From positions 1 to 64,000 of the forward strand of contig CAIXEA010000155.1 of the NCBI GenBank assembly GCA_903918315.1: 64,000 bases of DNA. The letters run 5' to 3'. The translations under genes were made by a program, and so were the position numbers. Below the pieces are notes generated by a model that saw only the letters and a list, made by a program, of their open reading frames with translations, was not told where the DNA came from and made no database searches. This DNA comes from an uncultured Acetobacteraceae bacterium (GTDB lineage: Bacteria > Pseudomonadota > Alphaproteobacteria > Acetobacterales > Acetobacteraceae). Shown here piece after piece: positions 12,724 to 60,368 of this stretch; within the stretch, counting starts at the first letter, position 1, and every line of letters starts with the position of its first letter.

Positions 12724-13389
12724 ATGCATTACCAATGGGATTTCGTCTTCCTCAGCCGCTACATCCCCCTGTTCTGGCGGGGTGTGGAGGTCACGTTGGC
12801 CTATACCGTCGGCACGATCACGCTCGGTCTGATGATCGGGCTGGTCATCGGTCTTGGCCGGCTGTCGCCATCGCGGCTGCTCAACATCCCGCTGATCGCC
12901 TTCATTGAGATCTTCCGCTGCACGCCGCTGCTGGTGCAGATCGTCTGGGTCTATTACGCGCTGCCGGTGATCCTGGGGATCCAGATCCCCGCCATCGTCG
13001 CCGCGGTCCTGACTCTGTCCTGCTACACGGGCGCATTCTACGCGGAGATTTTTCGTGGCGGTATCATCTCGATTGAGCGCGGGCAGTGGGATGCGGCACG
13101 GGCATTGGGGCTGCGGCGCTGGACGATGATGCGGCAGGTGATCCTGCCGCAGGCGATGCGGCGGATGATTCCCCCCTTCGTCAACCAGTCGATCACCCAG
13201 TTGAAGAACACGTCGCTGGTTTCAACCATCGCGGTGCCCGACCTGCTCTACAACGGCACGCTGATCACCGCCGACACCTACCGGCCGCTGGAAGTCTATA
13301 CGGTCGTTGCGCTGATCTATTTCGCGCTGCTCTTCCCCAGCACGATGCTGGCGCAATGGTATGAGCGGCGACTGGAAAAGGGACGCTGA
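12724..13389 (+). CDS. Amino-acid-type ABC transporter permease
   Basis: Encodes 221 residues with five or so membrane helices of the His/Glu/Gln (HisM/GlnP) permease family. The EAA coupling motif is GQWDAARALGLRRWTMMRQV, followed by ILPQAMRRMIPP, and the N-terminus contains the family stretch WRGVEVTLAYTVGT. It follows its binding protein directly. The cognate ATPase and any second permease must be elsewhere, or this permease works as a homodimer with a shared ATPase (inference). A ~90-base repeat follows the gene. Confidence 0.9.
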   Translation: MHYQWDFVFLSRYIPLFWRGVEVTLAYTVGTITLGLMIGLVIGLGRLSPSRLLNIPLIAFIEIFRCTPLLVQIVWVYYALPVILGIQIPAIVAAVLTLSCYTGAFYAEIFRGGIISIERGQWDAARALGLRRWTMMRQVILPQAMRRMIPPFVNQSITQLKNTSLVSTIAVPDLLYNGTLITADTYRPLEVYTVVALIYFALLFPSTMLAQWYERRLEKGR

Positions 13390-13425
13390 CGACGGCGGGA
13401 GGTCCGGATCCTGGGATCAGGATCT

Positions 13426-13516
13426 AGAGCGTGATCGGCGGAGGTGGAATCATCGGAGCCGTGAATCACGCGATCAAACAATCGGTTAGAGCTTGTCAGG
13501 TGCGCCTCAAAGCACC
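13426..13516. repeat. Dispersed 91-bp repeat, copy A
   Basis: The reverse complement of this stretch matches 59495-59584 with 5 differences in 90 positions. It contains a hairpin part (GGTGCTTT...GCGCACC) and an end TCCGCCGATCACGCTC. Both copies sit between the 3' ends of convergent genes; here between the permease (ends 13389) and the M20 amidohydrolase (ends 13527). Confidence 0.85.
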
Positions 13517-13526
13517 GGACGGGCTC

Positions 13527-14702
13527 CTAGCCGCCGCGCGGCATCTGCTGCTCCACCAGCGTCGCCCACCAGGATGCGCCGATGGGCAGGATGTCGTCAT
13601 TGAAGTCATAGCCGGGGTTATGCAGTTGCTTCTCCCCCGGGCCGCGCGCGGCGCCGAGCATCAGATACGCGCCCTGCTTGGCATTCAGCATGAAGGCGAA
13701 ATCCTCCCCGCCCATGGTGGGGGCGTGCATTTCACGCACTTTGGCATCGCCGGCGGTCGCGGTGGCGGCGCGAACAGCGAGGGTGGTGGCGTCTTCATCA
13801 TTGACGGTCGCGGGGGCATGGCGGCTGAAGCTGACCTCGGCCTTGGCGCCGAAACTGGCGGCGATGCCGGTGGCCAGGCGCGCGATTCCGGCTTCGATGG
13901 TGGTCCCGACTTCAGGCAGGTACCAGCGCGCGGTGCCTTTCATGAACACGCGCTCGGGGATGATATTCGGTGCGTCGCCAGCGCTGATATGTCCGACCGA
14001 GACCACGCCACCCTGAATGGGTTCGACATTGCGGGACACGATGGTTTGCAAGGCATTGATGATTTGTGCGGCAACGACGATCGCGTCGACCCCGCGATGC
14101 GGCTCCGCGCCGTGGCTGCCGGTGCCGGTGACGGTGATTTCGAACCAGCCGACGGCGGCCATGACCGGGCCGGTCCGCCACAAGAATGTGCCGGCCTGTG
14201 CCTGTGGCCAGTTATGCAGGCCGTAGACCTTGTCCATCGGGCAGCGCTGGAACAGGCCATCCTTGACCATCTTGTCGGCACCAGCCTCGAACTCTTCCGC
14301 CGGTTGGAAGATCAGGTAGACCGTGCCATCGAAATTGCGGGTTTCCGCCAGGTATTTCGCCGCGCCCAGCAGCATGGCGGTGTGCCCGTCATGGCCGCAG
14401 GCATGCATCACGCCGGGATTTTGACTGGCATAGGGTACGCCGGTCTCTTCAACGATGCCCAAAGCGTCCATGTCCGCGCGCAGACCGATGGCACGGTCCG
14501 AGGTGCCGTTGCGGATGACCCCGACAACGCCATGCACAGCCATGCCCGTGATGATCTCATCGACGCCAAACGCCCGCAGCCGTTCCTGAACGACGGCCGA
14601 GGTGCGGGCTTCCTGCATCGACAGCTCGGGATGGGCATGGAAATCCCGGCGCCATTCCGTCATGTCGGCATGAAAATCTGCGATACGATTGATGATTGGC
14701 AT
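13527..14702 (-). CDS. M20 family amidohydrolase (hippurate hydrolase-like)
   Basis: Encodes 391 residues of the M20D aminoacylase/amidohydrolase group. Metal-binding features are visible: HACGHDGHTAMLLGAAKYLA near residues 100-120, FQPAEEFEAGADKMVKDG, and a late His in PTMGGEDFAFML, with the bacterial dimerisation domain between. Such enzymes remove N-acyl groups from amino acids (hippurate, N-acetyl amino acids, indole-acetyl conjugates); the substrate is not predictable. The gene for an NAD(P)-binding protein lies 35 bases upstream on the same strand, a likely two-gene operon. Confidence 0.92.
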   Translation of the reverse strand: MPIINRIADFHADMTEWRRDFHAHPELSMQEARTSAVVQERLRAFGVDEIITGMAVHGVVGVIRNGTSDRAIGLRADMDALGIVEETGVPYASQNPGVMHACGHDGHTAMLLGAAKYLAETRNFDGTVYLIFQPAEEFEAGADKMVKDGLFQRCPMDKVYGLHNWPQAQAGTFLWRTGPVMAAVGWFEITVTGTGSHGAEPHRGVDAIVVAAQIINALQTIVSRNVEPIQGGVVSVGHISAGDAPNIIPERVFMKGTARWYLPEVGTTIEAGIARLATGIAASFGAKAEVSFSRHAPATVNDEDATTLAVRAATATAGDAKVREMHAPTMGGEDFAFMLNAKQGAYLMLGAARGPGEKQLHNPGYDFNDDILPIGASWWATLVEQQMPRGG

Positions 14703-58648: not shown

Positions 58649-59485
58649 ATGATCAAATTCGGCATCTCGCTCTTTTTCACCGATTATTCGATGACGCCCG
58701 CTGGCCTGGCGGCTGAACTGGAACGGCGCGGCTTCGAATCCGTCTGGTCGGGTGAGCATTCGCACATTCCGGATGTCCTGAAGACCGCGCCGCCGCCGAC
58801 CGGTCTCAAGCGACATTATTACGATGTGATGGATCCTTTTGTGACCCTCACCGCCGCGGCCATGGCCACGACCACGCTGAAAATCGGCACCGGCGTCTGC
58901 CTGATCCCGCAGCGGGATGCCATTCAGACGGCTAAGCTGGTGGCGTCGATCGACCAGATTTCTCAAGGCCGGTTCCTGTTTGGTGTTGGCAATGGATGGA
59001 ACCAGTCGGAAATCGAGAATCACGGCGCTGACTTCAAGACCCGTCACAAACGGGCCCGGGAAAGCATTGAGGCGATGAAGGCGATCTGGACCCAGTCCAA
59101 GGCCGAATATCATGGCGATATCATCCGATTCGATCCGATGATGACCTGGCCGAAGCCGCGGCAGACGCCGCACCCGCCGGTGCTTGTCGGCGGTGCCTTT
59201 CCATACTCGGCCCGCCGCGCCATCGCCTATGGCAATGGCTGGCTGCCCAGCGGGAACGTGGTCCAGACGATCCCCGTGTTCCGTCAAATGGCGGCGGAGG
59301 CCGGCCGCGATCCAGCCTCGTTGCCGATCACGGTGTGGTATCCGGACCGGGATGCGGCGTTGATCCGGCAGTATGCTGATCTGGGGGTGGAACGGGTGGT
59401 GTTCACCGTGCCCTCGGGCCAGGCTGATATTGTGCTGCCGGCGCTGGATGAGATCGGGGGCATCATGGCGGCGGTCAACGGTTAG
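58649..59485 (+). CDS. LLM-class F420-type oxidoreductase
   Basis: Encodes 278 residues from ATG 58649, preceded by CAGGAGG. Luciferase-like TIM-barrel: MIKFGISLFFTDYSMTPAGLA, GFESVWSGEHSHIP, IGTGVCLIPQRDAIQTAKLV, GVGNGWNQSEIENHG and VLVGGAFPYSARRAIAYGNG. The TIGR03619-like pattern is usually called F420-dependent, although in proteobacteria the cofactor may be FMN. Substrate unknown. Confidence 0.88.
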   Translation: MIKFGISLFFTDYSMTPAGLAAELERRGFESVWSGEHSHIPDVLKTAPPPTGLKRHYYDVMDPFVTLTAAAMATTTLKIGTGVCLIPQRDAIQTAKLVASIDQISQGRFLFGVGNGWNQSEIENHGADFKTRHKRARESIEAMKAIWTQSKAEYHGDIIRFDPMMTWPKPRQTPHPPVLVGGAFPYSARRAIAYGNGWLPSGNVVQTIPVFRQMAAEAGRDPASLPITVWYPDRDAALIRQYADLGVERVVFTVPSGQADIVLPALDEIGGIMAAVNG

Positions 59486-59494
59486 AGCATGTCT

Positions 59495-59584
59495 GGTGCT
59501 TTCAGGCGCACCTGACATGCTCTAACTGATTGTTTGATCGCGTGATTCACGGCTCCGGTGATTCCCCCTCCGCCGATCACGCTC
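59495..59584. repeat. Dispersed 90-bp repeat, copy B
   Basis: Opposite orientation to copy A (13426-13516), with 5 differences in 90 positions. The arms AGAGCATGTC (59483-59492) and GACATGCTCT (59513-59522) with inner GGTGC/GCACC form a hairpin. The copy runs over the stop codon of the methyltransferase gene (59577-59579), so that gene ends inside the repeat. Confidence 0.85.
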
Positions 59585-60368
59585 CAGGCACCCGGCCGGT
59601 CACGGCGTTGGCGCGGGATGGATAGGTGATCCGTCCCGCCGCATCGGCTGGCAGGCGTGCCCGGAGGCGGGCTTTGAAGGTCGCGAGCTCCGCCTCCGGC
59701 AATTTGGCCAGGGCTGGCTTGATGCTGCCCATTGCGGTGTTTGCGTCCCAGTAATCCTCAAAATCGGTGAAACTGCGCTCCACCGTGATTGCGTGGGTTT
59801 CGACGGATTCCAGCCCGGCATCGACCCAGAGGGCGCGCAGCGCGTCCATGCGGGCGACGGGGGCATTCGGTGGCAGGGGCGGGTTGTACCCGGCCGCCCG
59901 GAGTTCCGCCTGAATCGGTTCGAATGGGAAGCCACCGCCCAGGATGTCCCAGGCATAGGCGGTGACGATCCCGCCCGGGCGGACCACCCGCATCATTTCC
60001 GAGACCCCCTTGGCGGGATCGGGAACGAAGAAGATGACCAGCGCCATGACGGCGGCATCGAACTGGTCCGCGTCGAAGGGGAGGGCCATGGCGTCGCCTT
60101 CTTTGAACACGACGGTTTGCAGACCTGGCCGACCGCTCGCGAATTGCAACTGCGGGGCCGAGGGATCGATGCCGTGCACCATTGCGGGCGCACATCGCCG
60201 CATCAACAGCTCGGTGAACGCGCCATTGCCGCAGCCGATATCGACCCAACGGAGGCCGGGTGCGGGCGCCAGCCAGTCGAGGAACTCCATGCCGGCGATC
60301 TGGCTCCAGACGCCCATGCCGCGTTCATAGGCTGCGCCATCGTCGAACCGGATGGGTTGTTGGCTCAT
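59577..60368 (-). CDS. Class I SAM-dependent methyltransferase
   Basis: Encodes 263 residues from ATG 60368, with GGAG upstream. Motif I is RWVDIGCGNGAFTELLM, then GIDPSAPQLQFA, FDAAVMALVIFFVPDPAKGV and MMRVVRPGGIVTAYAWDI, the UbiE/Methyltransf_11 layout. The substrate is unknown. The last codons and the stop lie in the 90-base repeat. Confidence 0.88.
   Translation of the reverse strand: MSQQPIRFDDGAAYERGMGVWSQIAGMEFLDWLAPAPGLRWVDIGCGNGAFTELLMRRCAPAMVHGIDPSAPQLQFASGRPGLQTVVFKEGDAMALPFDADQFDAAVMALVIFFVPDPAKGVSEMMRVVRPGGIVTAYAWDILGGGFPFEPIQAELRAAGYNPPLPPNAPVARMDALRALWVDAGLESVETHAITVERSFTDFEDYWDANTAMGSIKPALAKLPEAELATFKARLRARLPADAAGRITYPSRANAVTGRVPGA

Follow-up and report, generated by a model that had tools for sequence, protein, structure and literature searches.

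A two-armed palindromic repeat at gene 3' ends in an uncultured Acetobacteraceae bacterium frequently shares the stop codons of its neighbours

The 64,000-nucleotide stretch of DNA analysed here (the window), derived from an uncultured Acetobacteraceae bacterium, contains two copies of a repeat which is very probably a non-autonomous mobile element of the CIR, RIME and Bru-RS kind, inserting at YTAR tetranucleotides, re-forming the stop codon it strikes as TAG and being tolerated at the 3' ends of genes. It is best read as a largely neutral mobile element.

An earlier note, made from the sequence alone, had described a repeat of about 90 bp present twice in inverted orientation with five differences. 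Recomputation by BLAST and alignment returns the same figure, with 94.4% identity across 90 bases between 13426-13516 (forward strand) and 59495-59584 (reverse strand). These matches are the cores of a two-hairpin element of about 106 bp with the ends YTA-GAGC...GCTC-TAR, the whole unit (13424-13529 and 59482-59587) thus being longer than the noted length. It is composed, in order, of a left arm (YTA-GAGCGTGATC...ATCACGC), a 14-base linker and a right arm (TTAGAGC...GCTC-TAR). The borders were read from BLAST copies printed in register with their flanks, and an alignment of 33 copies and 106 columns (A2) underlies the coordinates that follow. Genes were predicted with a codon-usage script trained on the collected sequences, which recovered both gene pairs of the window and placed both copies between convergent genes, as the earlier note had claimed.

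Copy 1 (13424-13529, forward strand; 106 bp when the flanking Y is counted along with the two TA dinucleotides, at 13425-13426 and 13528-13529) scores 128.1 bits against the covariance model. Its left arm (13429-13471, forward strand) is a three-tier hairpin according to RNA folding and pair counts, with the outer stem GCGTGAT/ATCACGC and an apical GGTG/CATC stem around GAAT. It contains two strandless GANTC sites, both reading GAATC, the first in the apical loop (13447-13451) and the second at 13463-13467. The linker (13472-13485, forward strand), delimited in A2, is in part weakly paired in the single-copy fold and is followed by the right arm, a long hairpin starting with TTAGAGC (13486-13529, forward strand; pair counts, folding and gene prediction). 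The convergent neighbours are an ABC transporter permease (BPD_transp_1; 12724-13389, forward strand; gene prediction and domain) and an M20 peptidase/amidohydrolase (13527-14702, reverse strand; gene prediction, domain and orthologues), the TAG stop of which (13527-13529, reverse strand) forms the outer end of the right arm.

Copy 2 (59482-59587, reverse strand; 106 bp, 130.5 bits, likewise aligned in A2) carries TA at 59483-59484, and the other terminal TA reads CA (59585-59586). Its right arm (59482-59525) is an 18-bp hairpin with one mismatch by pair counts and RNA folding, followed by the linker placed from A2 (59526-59539) and the left arm (59540-59582; RNA folding), all on the reverse strand; its strandless GANTC sites 2 (59544-59548) and 1 (59560-59564) are located by sequence and alignment count. 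The left arm contains the stop codon of an S-adenosylmethionine (SAM) methyltransferase (59577-60368, reverse strand; gene prediction and domain), a TGA at 59577-59579 on the reverse strand, in agreement with the earlier note. That note had overlooked the stop of the opposite gene, a luciferase-like oxidoreductase (58649-59485, forward strand; gene prediction, domain and orthologues), whose TAG (59483-59485, forward strand) coincides with the end of the right arm. A stop codon is hence present at both window copies, offset by one base in copy 1 (TAG, then GAGC). The luciferase-like oxidoreductase family is itself much enlarged, with 86 matches in the genome of the window and up to 98 in one relative.

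The folding proposed for part of the element was borne out by RNA fold z-scores of -4.3 and -6.7 for the two window copies, the left arm forming a three-tier hairpin with GAATC at the apical loop and the right arm an 18-bp hairpin, and the minimum-energy left arm of copy 2 deviating in detail from the consensus. In A2, 95.1% of the cells are paired compared to 93.1% in shuffles, and in 14 cells, all of the right arm, both partners have changed, where shuffling gives 5.0 on average. The double changes are confined to four pairs of the right arm, the left arm having none, and as the copies are closely related this covariation is suggestive only. Columns 75 and 94 of the right arm are unpaired in 16 of 32 distinct rows (A.A in eight, A.G in seven and C.A in one). 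The near-identical copies L023, L030 and L032 show paired changes across the right hairpin, for example TTAGTGC..GCACTAA, as if a palindrome-correcting mutation or selection had acted on the stem. The borders are strongly conserved in A2: of the 33 copies, 31 have C or T at column 1, all have G at column 4, directly after the first TA, and all have A or G at column 106, with the terminal TA present in 26 and 27 copies at the two ends.

The number of repeats is far beyond chance. The case of only two copies, which the earlier note had considered, does not apply, since a covariance model (R1, constructed without the outer right-arm pairs) yields 103 hits scoring 38 bits or more, distributed over 97 sites, in the 5.04-Mb genome of this Acetobacteraceae member. 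Of 140 hits at E <= 1, 105 reach 38 bits; two opposite-strand echoes were subtracted and neighbouring hits were merged into sites, and the 35 weaker hits left out appear by eye to be mostly echoes of the right hairpin on the opposite strand. Every covariance count given here rests on R1, not on A2. By BLAST, for which 97 first-look candidates were obtained and 40 scored, the same genome contains 43 matches, 42 of them at 91% identity or above and some partial, so that the covariance model adds about 60 further, more diverged copies. A pattern written for the right hairpin matches 24 places, and the reversed pattern used as a control matches none. With a length under 200 bp (106 bp), terminal inverted repeats (TAGAGC...GCTCTA) and dispersal over 97 sites, the element has the traits of a MITE. 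The suggestion of a miniature mobile repeat is thereby upheld by the 43 BLAST and roughly 60 diverged copies with short inverted ends, and further by the TA duplicated at the empty sites described below for a rhizobial repeat that shares its anatomy. By eye, 17 of the 97 sites are no more than about 450 bp from the end of a contig; with copies so often in this position, the draft assembly is probably interrupted by the repeats, and more copies may exist than were counted. Tandem left-arm-only units of about 53-65 bp are found at L035, L038, L048 and L051 (positions 264-473, with four 53-bp units), as recombination between repeated TTAGAGC motifs would give.

A BLAST search across 40 genomes identified matches in 14 including the own genome, comprising 13 of the 23 others in the genus and none of the 16 outside it. 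The matches at genus level mostly span query bases 1-56 or 1-67, that is the left arm and linker, and the right arm is the most species-specific portion of the element. R1 reaches further, matching 35 of 80 genomes of the family (one per genus, own included) at E <= 1e-6. The core GTGAATCANGCGATCAAACAA is present, among the matches listed, in named genome contigs of Acidisphaera, Siccirubricoccus, Rhodopila, Roseicella, Belnapia and Plastoroseomonas, and also in other Acetobacteraceae or Rhodospirillales records. Several contigs of one metagenome-assembled genome labelled Nitrosovibrio (CALQHT02) and one Vibrio contig are likewise among the matches listed, perhaps through mislabelling and chance. 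When compared to plasmids by blastn at E <= 1, the window element matched no rhizobial plasmid and gave one weak Azospirillum hit, and at the Rfam gathering score no family matched the element in the window, where only two tRNAs were found.

Placement relative to genes is far from random. The earlier note had placed the repeat between convergent genes on both occasions, which is true of the two window copies; across the genome, the 97 sites comprise 44 convergent, 34 tandem and no divergent gaps, one predicted intragenic site and 18 sites with one neighbour unseen, mostly due to contig ends. Among the 78 intergenic sites with both neighbours, convergent gaps are thus the commonest setting, not the only one, and the alternative that copies are scattered at random relative to gene ends is contradicted by the absence of divergent sites. 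Element-free background gaps in the same sequences, which were drawn from stretches chosen round elements, include 156 tandem, 35 divergent and 24 convergent examples, the divergent ones covering 6,633 of 18,682 bp. The chance of observing none of 78 in divergent gaps is about 1e-15 when gaps are weighted by length and 1e-6 when pairs are counted. Within the 64-kb window itself, 35 gene pairs are tandem, 12 divergent and 12 convergent. The 20 sites chosen in 12 other genera follow the same distribution, with ten tandem, nine convergent, no divergent and one without a neighbour.

At 59 of the 91 sites where a gene 3' end faces the element, the stop codon consists of exactly bases 2-4 of the element end, with 32 sites not joined and copy 1 of the window, being one base off, not counted among the 59. 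Expressed as facing ends, 61 of 135 are joined, 34 through the left and 27 through the right arm, and the joined stops are TAG in 57 cases, TAA in three and TGA in one. Eighty predicted genes end in or traverse an element; 65 of these terminate three to five bases in, at the terminal stop codon, as do 31 of 32 genes at elements of at least 110 bits. Truncation in a random frame predicts about one third ending there (p 2e-18 for all and 4e-14 for those of at least 110 bits). A pyrimidine (C or T) precedes 55 of the 61 joined stops, compared to 28 of 83 background TAA/TAG stops (Fisher p 2e-12). Stop-joining at three to five bases is also observed at 14 of the 20 sites chosen from the other 12 genera, which were picked from the family covariance listing.

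Orthologues of three genes (YggS, M20 and the luciferase-like oxidoreductase) suggest that the genes concerned have natural ends rather than truncations. The YggS orthologues from 14 genomes of the same genus all align to the last residue, 12 stopping right there and two one codon later, and the own-type element is absent from the 170 bases downstream of YggS in all 14. The last residue (391) of the M20 gene at copy 1 is reached in eight of 12 same-genus orthologues and residue 389-390 in the other four, a 13th orthologue, cut by a contig end, having been left out. In the relative G001, where the element is absent and both gene pairs nearly touch, the stops of the permease and M20 genes abut (TAA then TCA; L322), whereas the corresponding gap in the window is 137 bp. 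At the copy 2 locus, where six luciferase-like orthologues were compared, that of G001 (L255) ends in TAA-CGC-CTA, where CTA looks by eye like the stop of the methyltransferase on the opposite side; the window methyltransferase has an altered end, stopping at the TGA inside the element. The orthologous loci compared with the window's family are about 73-86% identical, a near-identical empty site being available only for the rhizobial element. Downstream of YggS in the relatives, a repeat belonging to that species follows in L232, a comparable hairpin in L237 and a start of the TAAAGC type in L234. Hairpin repeats of other sequence thus occur at the same gene ends in relatives (L328, L237, L232 and L234), pointing to several element families sharing one niche.

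A repeat of the same anatomy in rhizobia, used as a left-arm-only query, matches 248 plasmid records. Among the 60 matches listed, many of which represent one locus in related strains, four are without annotation and 17 of the other 56 show a gene under the match; for comparison, the left arm is joined at 34 of the 97 own-genome sites. Fifteen regions (L279-L293) were read, ten picked for a gene under the match and five without, and the repeats they contain are presumably RIMEs. They possess a TAGAGC arm, a linker and usually a second arm ending in TA, in a sequence unlike that of the window's element. In all ten gene-under-match regions (L279, L280, L281, L282, L284, L286, L287, L289, L290 and L291) the last codon of the coding sequence is precisely the opening codon of the repeat, TAG except for TAA in L280. 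None of the other five has a coding sequence ending there: L283 has no annotation, the coding sequences in L285 and L288 end 19 and eight bases before the repeat, L292 contains an IS5-family transposase and in L293 no gene faces that end. The resulting ten of 14 annotated regions reflect the hits chosen and do not constitute a rate. In L292 (positions 350-1200) the IS5-family insertion sequence is inserted exactly at the TA of the two-arm repeat, like IS711 in Bru-RS1.

Six near-identical plasmid regions without the repeat were compared as empty sites, L298 (no clean borders) and L299 (misaligned) being uninformative. The alcohol dehydrogenase and RraA sites considered next (L282/L294 and L284/L296) belong to Rhizobium leguminosarum strains. 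Alignment of L282 with L294 (99.6% identity) shows GGAC-TA-GGACGCC converted to GGAC-TA-[repeat]-TA-GGACGCC, the TAG of the empty site (CTAG) being the annotated stop of an alcohol dehydrogenase. L295 agrees with this empty site save for an A before the TA (ATAG where L294 has CTAG). Similarly, comparison of L284 with L296 and L297 shows GCCGC-TA-A converted to GCCGC-TA-[repeat]-TA-A, by which the annotated RraA stop (CTAA) is turned from TAA into TAG and the protein is left unchanged. In two independent insertions the rhizobial element has therefore duplicated TA at YTAR within a stop codon without changing the protein. For the window's family, the conserved YTA and TAR borders and the diverged orthologous loci suggest that TA may be duplicated at YTAR in the same manner. 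A 4-bp target duplication was ruled out, the four bases on the left not matching those on the right.

These observations are consistent with a mechanism in which an element of about 106 bp, comprising a pair of hairpin arms joined by a linker, bounded by the inverted ends TAGAGC...GCTCTA and lacking a gene of its own, would insert at YTAR tetranucleotides with duplication of the central TA. Insertion in either orientation at the TA with which a TAA or TAG stop begins would give TAG at the same codon because both ends begin with G after TA, and the protein would therefore be unchanged, as in the two rhizobial cases. Such insertions would be tolerated and would build up at the 3' ends of genes, chiefly where two genes converge and not where they diverge. 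The hairpin ends would presumably be the substrate of a transposase supplied in trans; enzymes of the IS711 type obey the same TA-in-YTAR rule, and any effect on RNA 3' ends may be a by-product or a later use. IS711 belongs to the IS5/IS427 group. Excerpts from the Brucella literature describe IS711 as duplicating TA at YTAR and favouring Bru-RS palindromes (PMC3163539, PMC2266754), and in the portion of a Paracoccus table available, ten of 11 IS5/IS427 entries are shown with 2-bp duplications and one with 4 (PMC3281130). The two PF13340 matches in the genome of the window correspond to a two-frame IS5-type transposase (L228) and a 65-residue fragment (L229). L228 was dropped as an IS5/IS427 partner, its flanking inverted repeat not being of the GAGC type, and the IS5-type element of L292 was dropped as an autonomous copy, having the ends GGAGC(C/T)GTGGAC and being inserted at the repeat's own TA. 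No IS630 transposase (DDE_3, PF13358) was found in the genome, and the search for YTAGAGC end pairs 500-2000 bp apart in part of the collected loci gave two pairs and no recognisable autonomous copy.

Several other explanations of the repeat can be weighed against this one. The earlier note had offered a REP-type element, and in the sense of a REP/BIME unit moved by a RAYT (Y1) transposase this is exceedingly improbable and was dropped. Dispersed palindromes at gene ends would be expected of such units, but Y1_Tnp (PF01797) has no match in the genome of the window while five of 14 control genomes, including Caulobacter and E. coli, are positive; the unit is 106 bp with two arms and not a REP of 20-40 bp; and each end carries TA, which the rhizobial counterpart duplicates on insertion. 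One REP-like trait is retained, in that the element end supplies TAG stops as do the GTAG REPs. A role in chromosome organisation or the cell cycle, with the element built round CcrM (GANTC) sites, is somewhat less remote, though still very unlikely. The mean of 1.9 GANTC per element exceeds the 0.62 of dinucleotide shuffles, the first site (columns 24-28) is kept in 30 of 33 copies, twice as GACTC, and the second is GAATC in all 33; the mean is likewise 1.9 in 20 copies from other genera (shuffles 0.78), and a profile search detects a CcrM-like methylase gene (PF01555 and PF18755) in the genome of the window. However, the sites lie in stems, where the sequence is constrained anyway, and the 15 rhizobial repeats have no excess of GANTC over shuffles (0.80 against 0.74); the stop-codon habit therefore does not depend on GANTC.

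A functional bidirectional 3'-end element (a terminator, exonuclease block or insulator), selected between convergent genes and merely spread by mobility, is a possible but doubtful reading. The earlier note's proposal of a bidirectional transcription end is compatible with the placement, never divergent among 78 sites and convergent at 44 although convergent gaps are few and short; the strong folding of both window copies and the double-sided changes of the right arm also favour it, and the part of a Bradyrhizobium study available describes REPs with complementary 3'-UTR sRNAs at convergent genes (PMC5082802). On the other hand, the intrinsic terminator scan (GC stem and U run) detected none at either window copy, relatives retain the genes without the element, purifying selection explains the placement equally well, and the kinship of the copies inflates the covariation test. 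The possibility that elements land randomly at YTAR and are sifted by purifying selection only, stops being the commonest harmless YTAR sites and there being no active targeting, stands slightly better than evenly balanced. It is compatible with the preferred explanation of a largely neutral mobile element and differs from it solely on targeting. Only one of the 97 sites is predicted to be intragenic, and random YTAR in non-divergent gaps or stops already places 39% at stops; the 65% observed (59 of 91) nevertheless departs from this null, estimated from merely 28 stops and 44 gap sites, with p 5e-7. Random TA in the same regions predicts 22% (p 9e-19). Random YTAR landing and purifying selection account for much, not all, of the stop-codon preference, which is read as mostly survival with some possible targeting preference.

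Known repeats close to the window element include the Caulobacter CcrM-associated intergenic repeats (CIR), reportedly described by Chen and Shapiro in 2003, and GTAG REPs, which are associated with RAYT. RIMEs, the rhizobial two-palindrome repeats said to have been described by Osteras in 1995, share with the window element two arms and a linker, the YTAGAGC...TAR ends and stop-codon sharing, and differ in the sequence of the arms. In excerpts from two sources, CIR elements are about 110 bp in length with two arms and a linker, GANTC at the loop and TA at the termini (PMC2229807, PMC10969869). These properties, compared for CIR by description alone, recur in the window element as a length of 106 columns, two arms and a linker, GANTC at the terminal loop (30 of 33), TA termini (26 and 27 of 33), an intergenic location and an alphaproteobacterial host. 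The excerpted 2007 review gives CIR no terminal inverted repeat, marks its target duplication '?' and regards its mobility as unresolved (PMC2229807). The window element, unlike CIR, has short inverted ends, and the '?' contrasts with the TA duplication of the rhizobial element that shares the window element's anatomy; the likeness to CIR seen here is one of anatomy and of the two GANTC sites. Bru-RS1 and Bru-RS2 of Brucella are characterised in the excerpts as a 103-bp palindromic repeat favoured as a target by IS711 (PMC3163539, PMC2266754); by description they resemble the window element in size and palindromes, with IS711 described as inserting into Bru-RS, not as moving it. The termini of GTAG REPs often give TAG stops to flanking ORFs, and REPs lie mostly between unidirectional and convergent genes, according to the available part of PMC3733652, so that stop-sharing by repeats is already in print; the GTAG REPs differ from the window element as 20-40-bp palindromes, and the window's genome is without a RAYT match. 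RUP, Correia/NEMIS and ERIC are, in the excerpts of PMC2229807 and PMC3049150, short MITE-like repeats with TA termini and target duplication, which by that description form one end-to-end stem-loop in contrast to the two arms found here. The accessible portions of the open-licence literature contain no report that was met of TA duplication inside the stop codons of two-arm alphaproteobacterial repeats.

The rhizobial empty sites supply a concrete rule for CIR-type movement, namely duplication of TA within YTAR, and two-arm repeats may crowd gene ends because insertion re-makes the stop codon that is struck. It is conceivable, if rather doubtful, that the two-arm repeats of the alphaproteobacteria (CIR, RIME and their kin) constitute one stop-codon-homing class, in which the machinery would seek the 3' ends of genes, at the stop codon or a terminator hairpin, the ends starting with G would be adapted to restoring TAG in both orientations, and one insertion after another would have remodelled convergent spacing and 3' UTRs throughout the class. 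As a largely neutral mobile element, the repeat is ordinary in being selfish and instructive in how it avoids harm, the insertion rule having been demonstrated in its counterpart of the same anatomy. One insertion can turn a TAA stop into TAG and create a new 3' UTR at a stroke, and tightly packed neighbouring genes would be pried apart without being broken. The ends of the element may serve annotators as a marker of true gene ends, and tests of transposition are made concrete.
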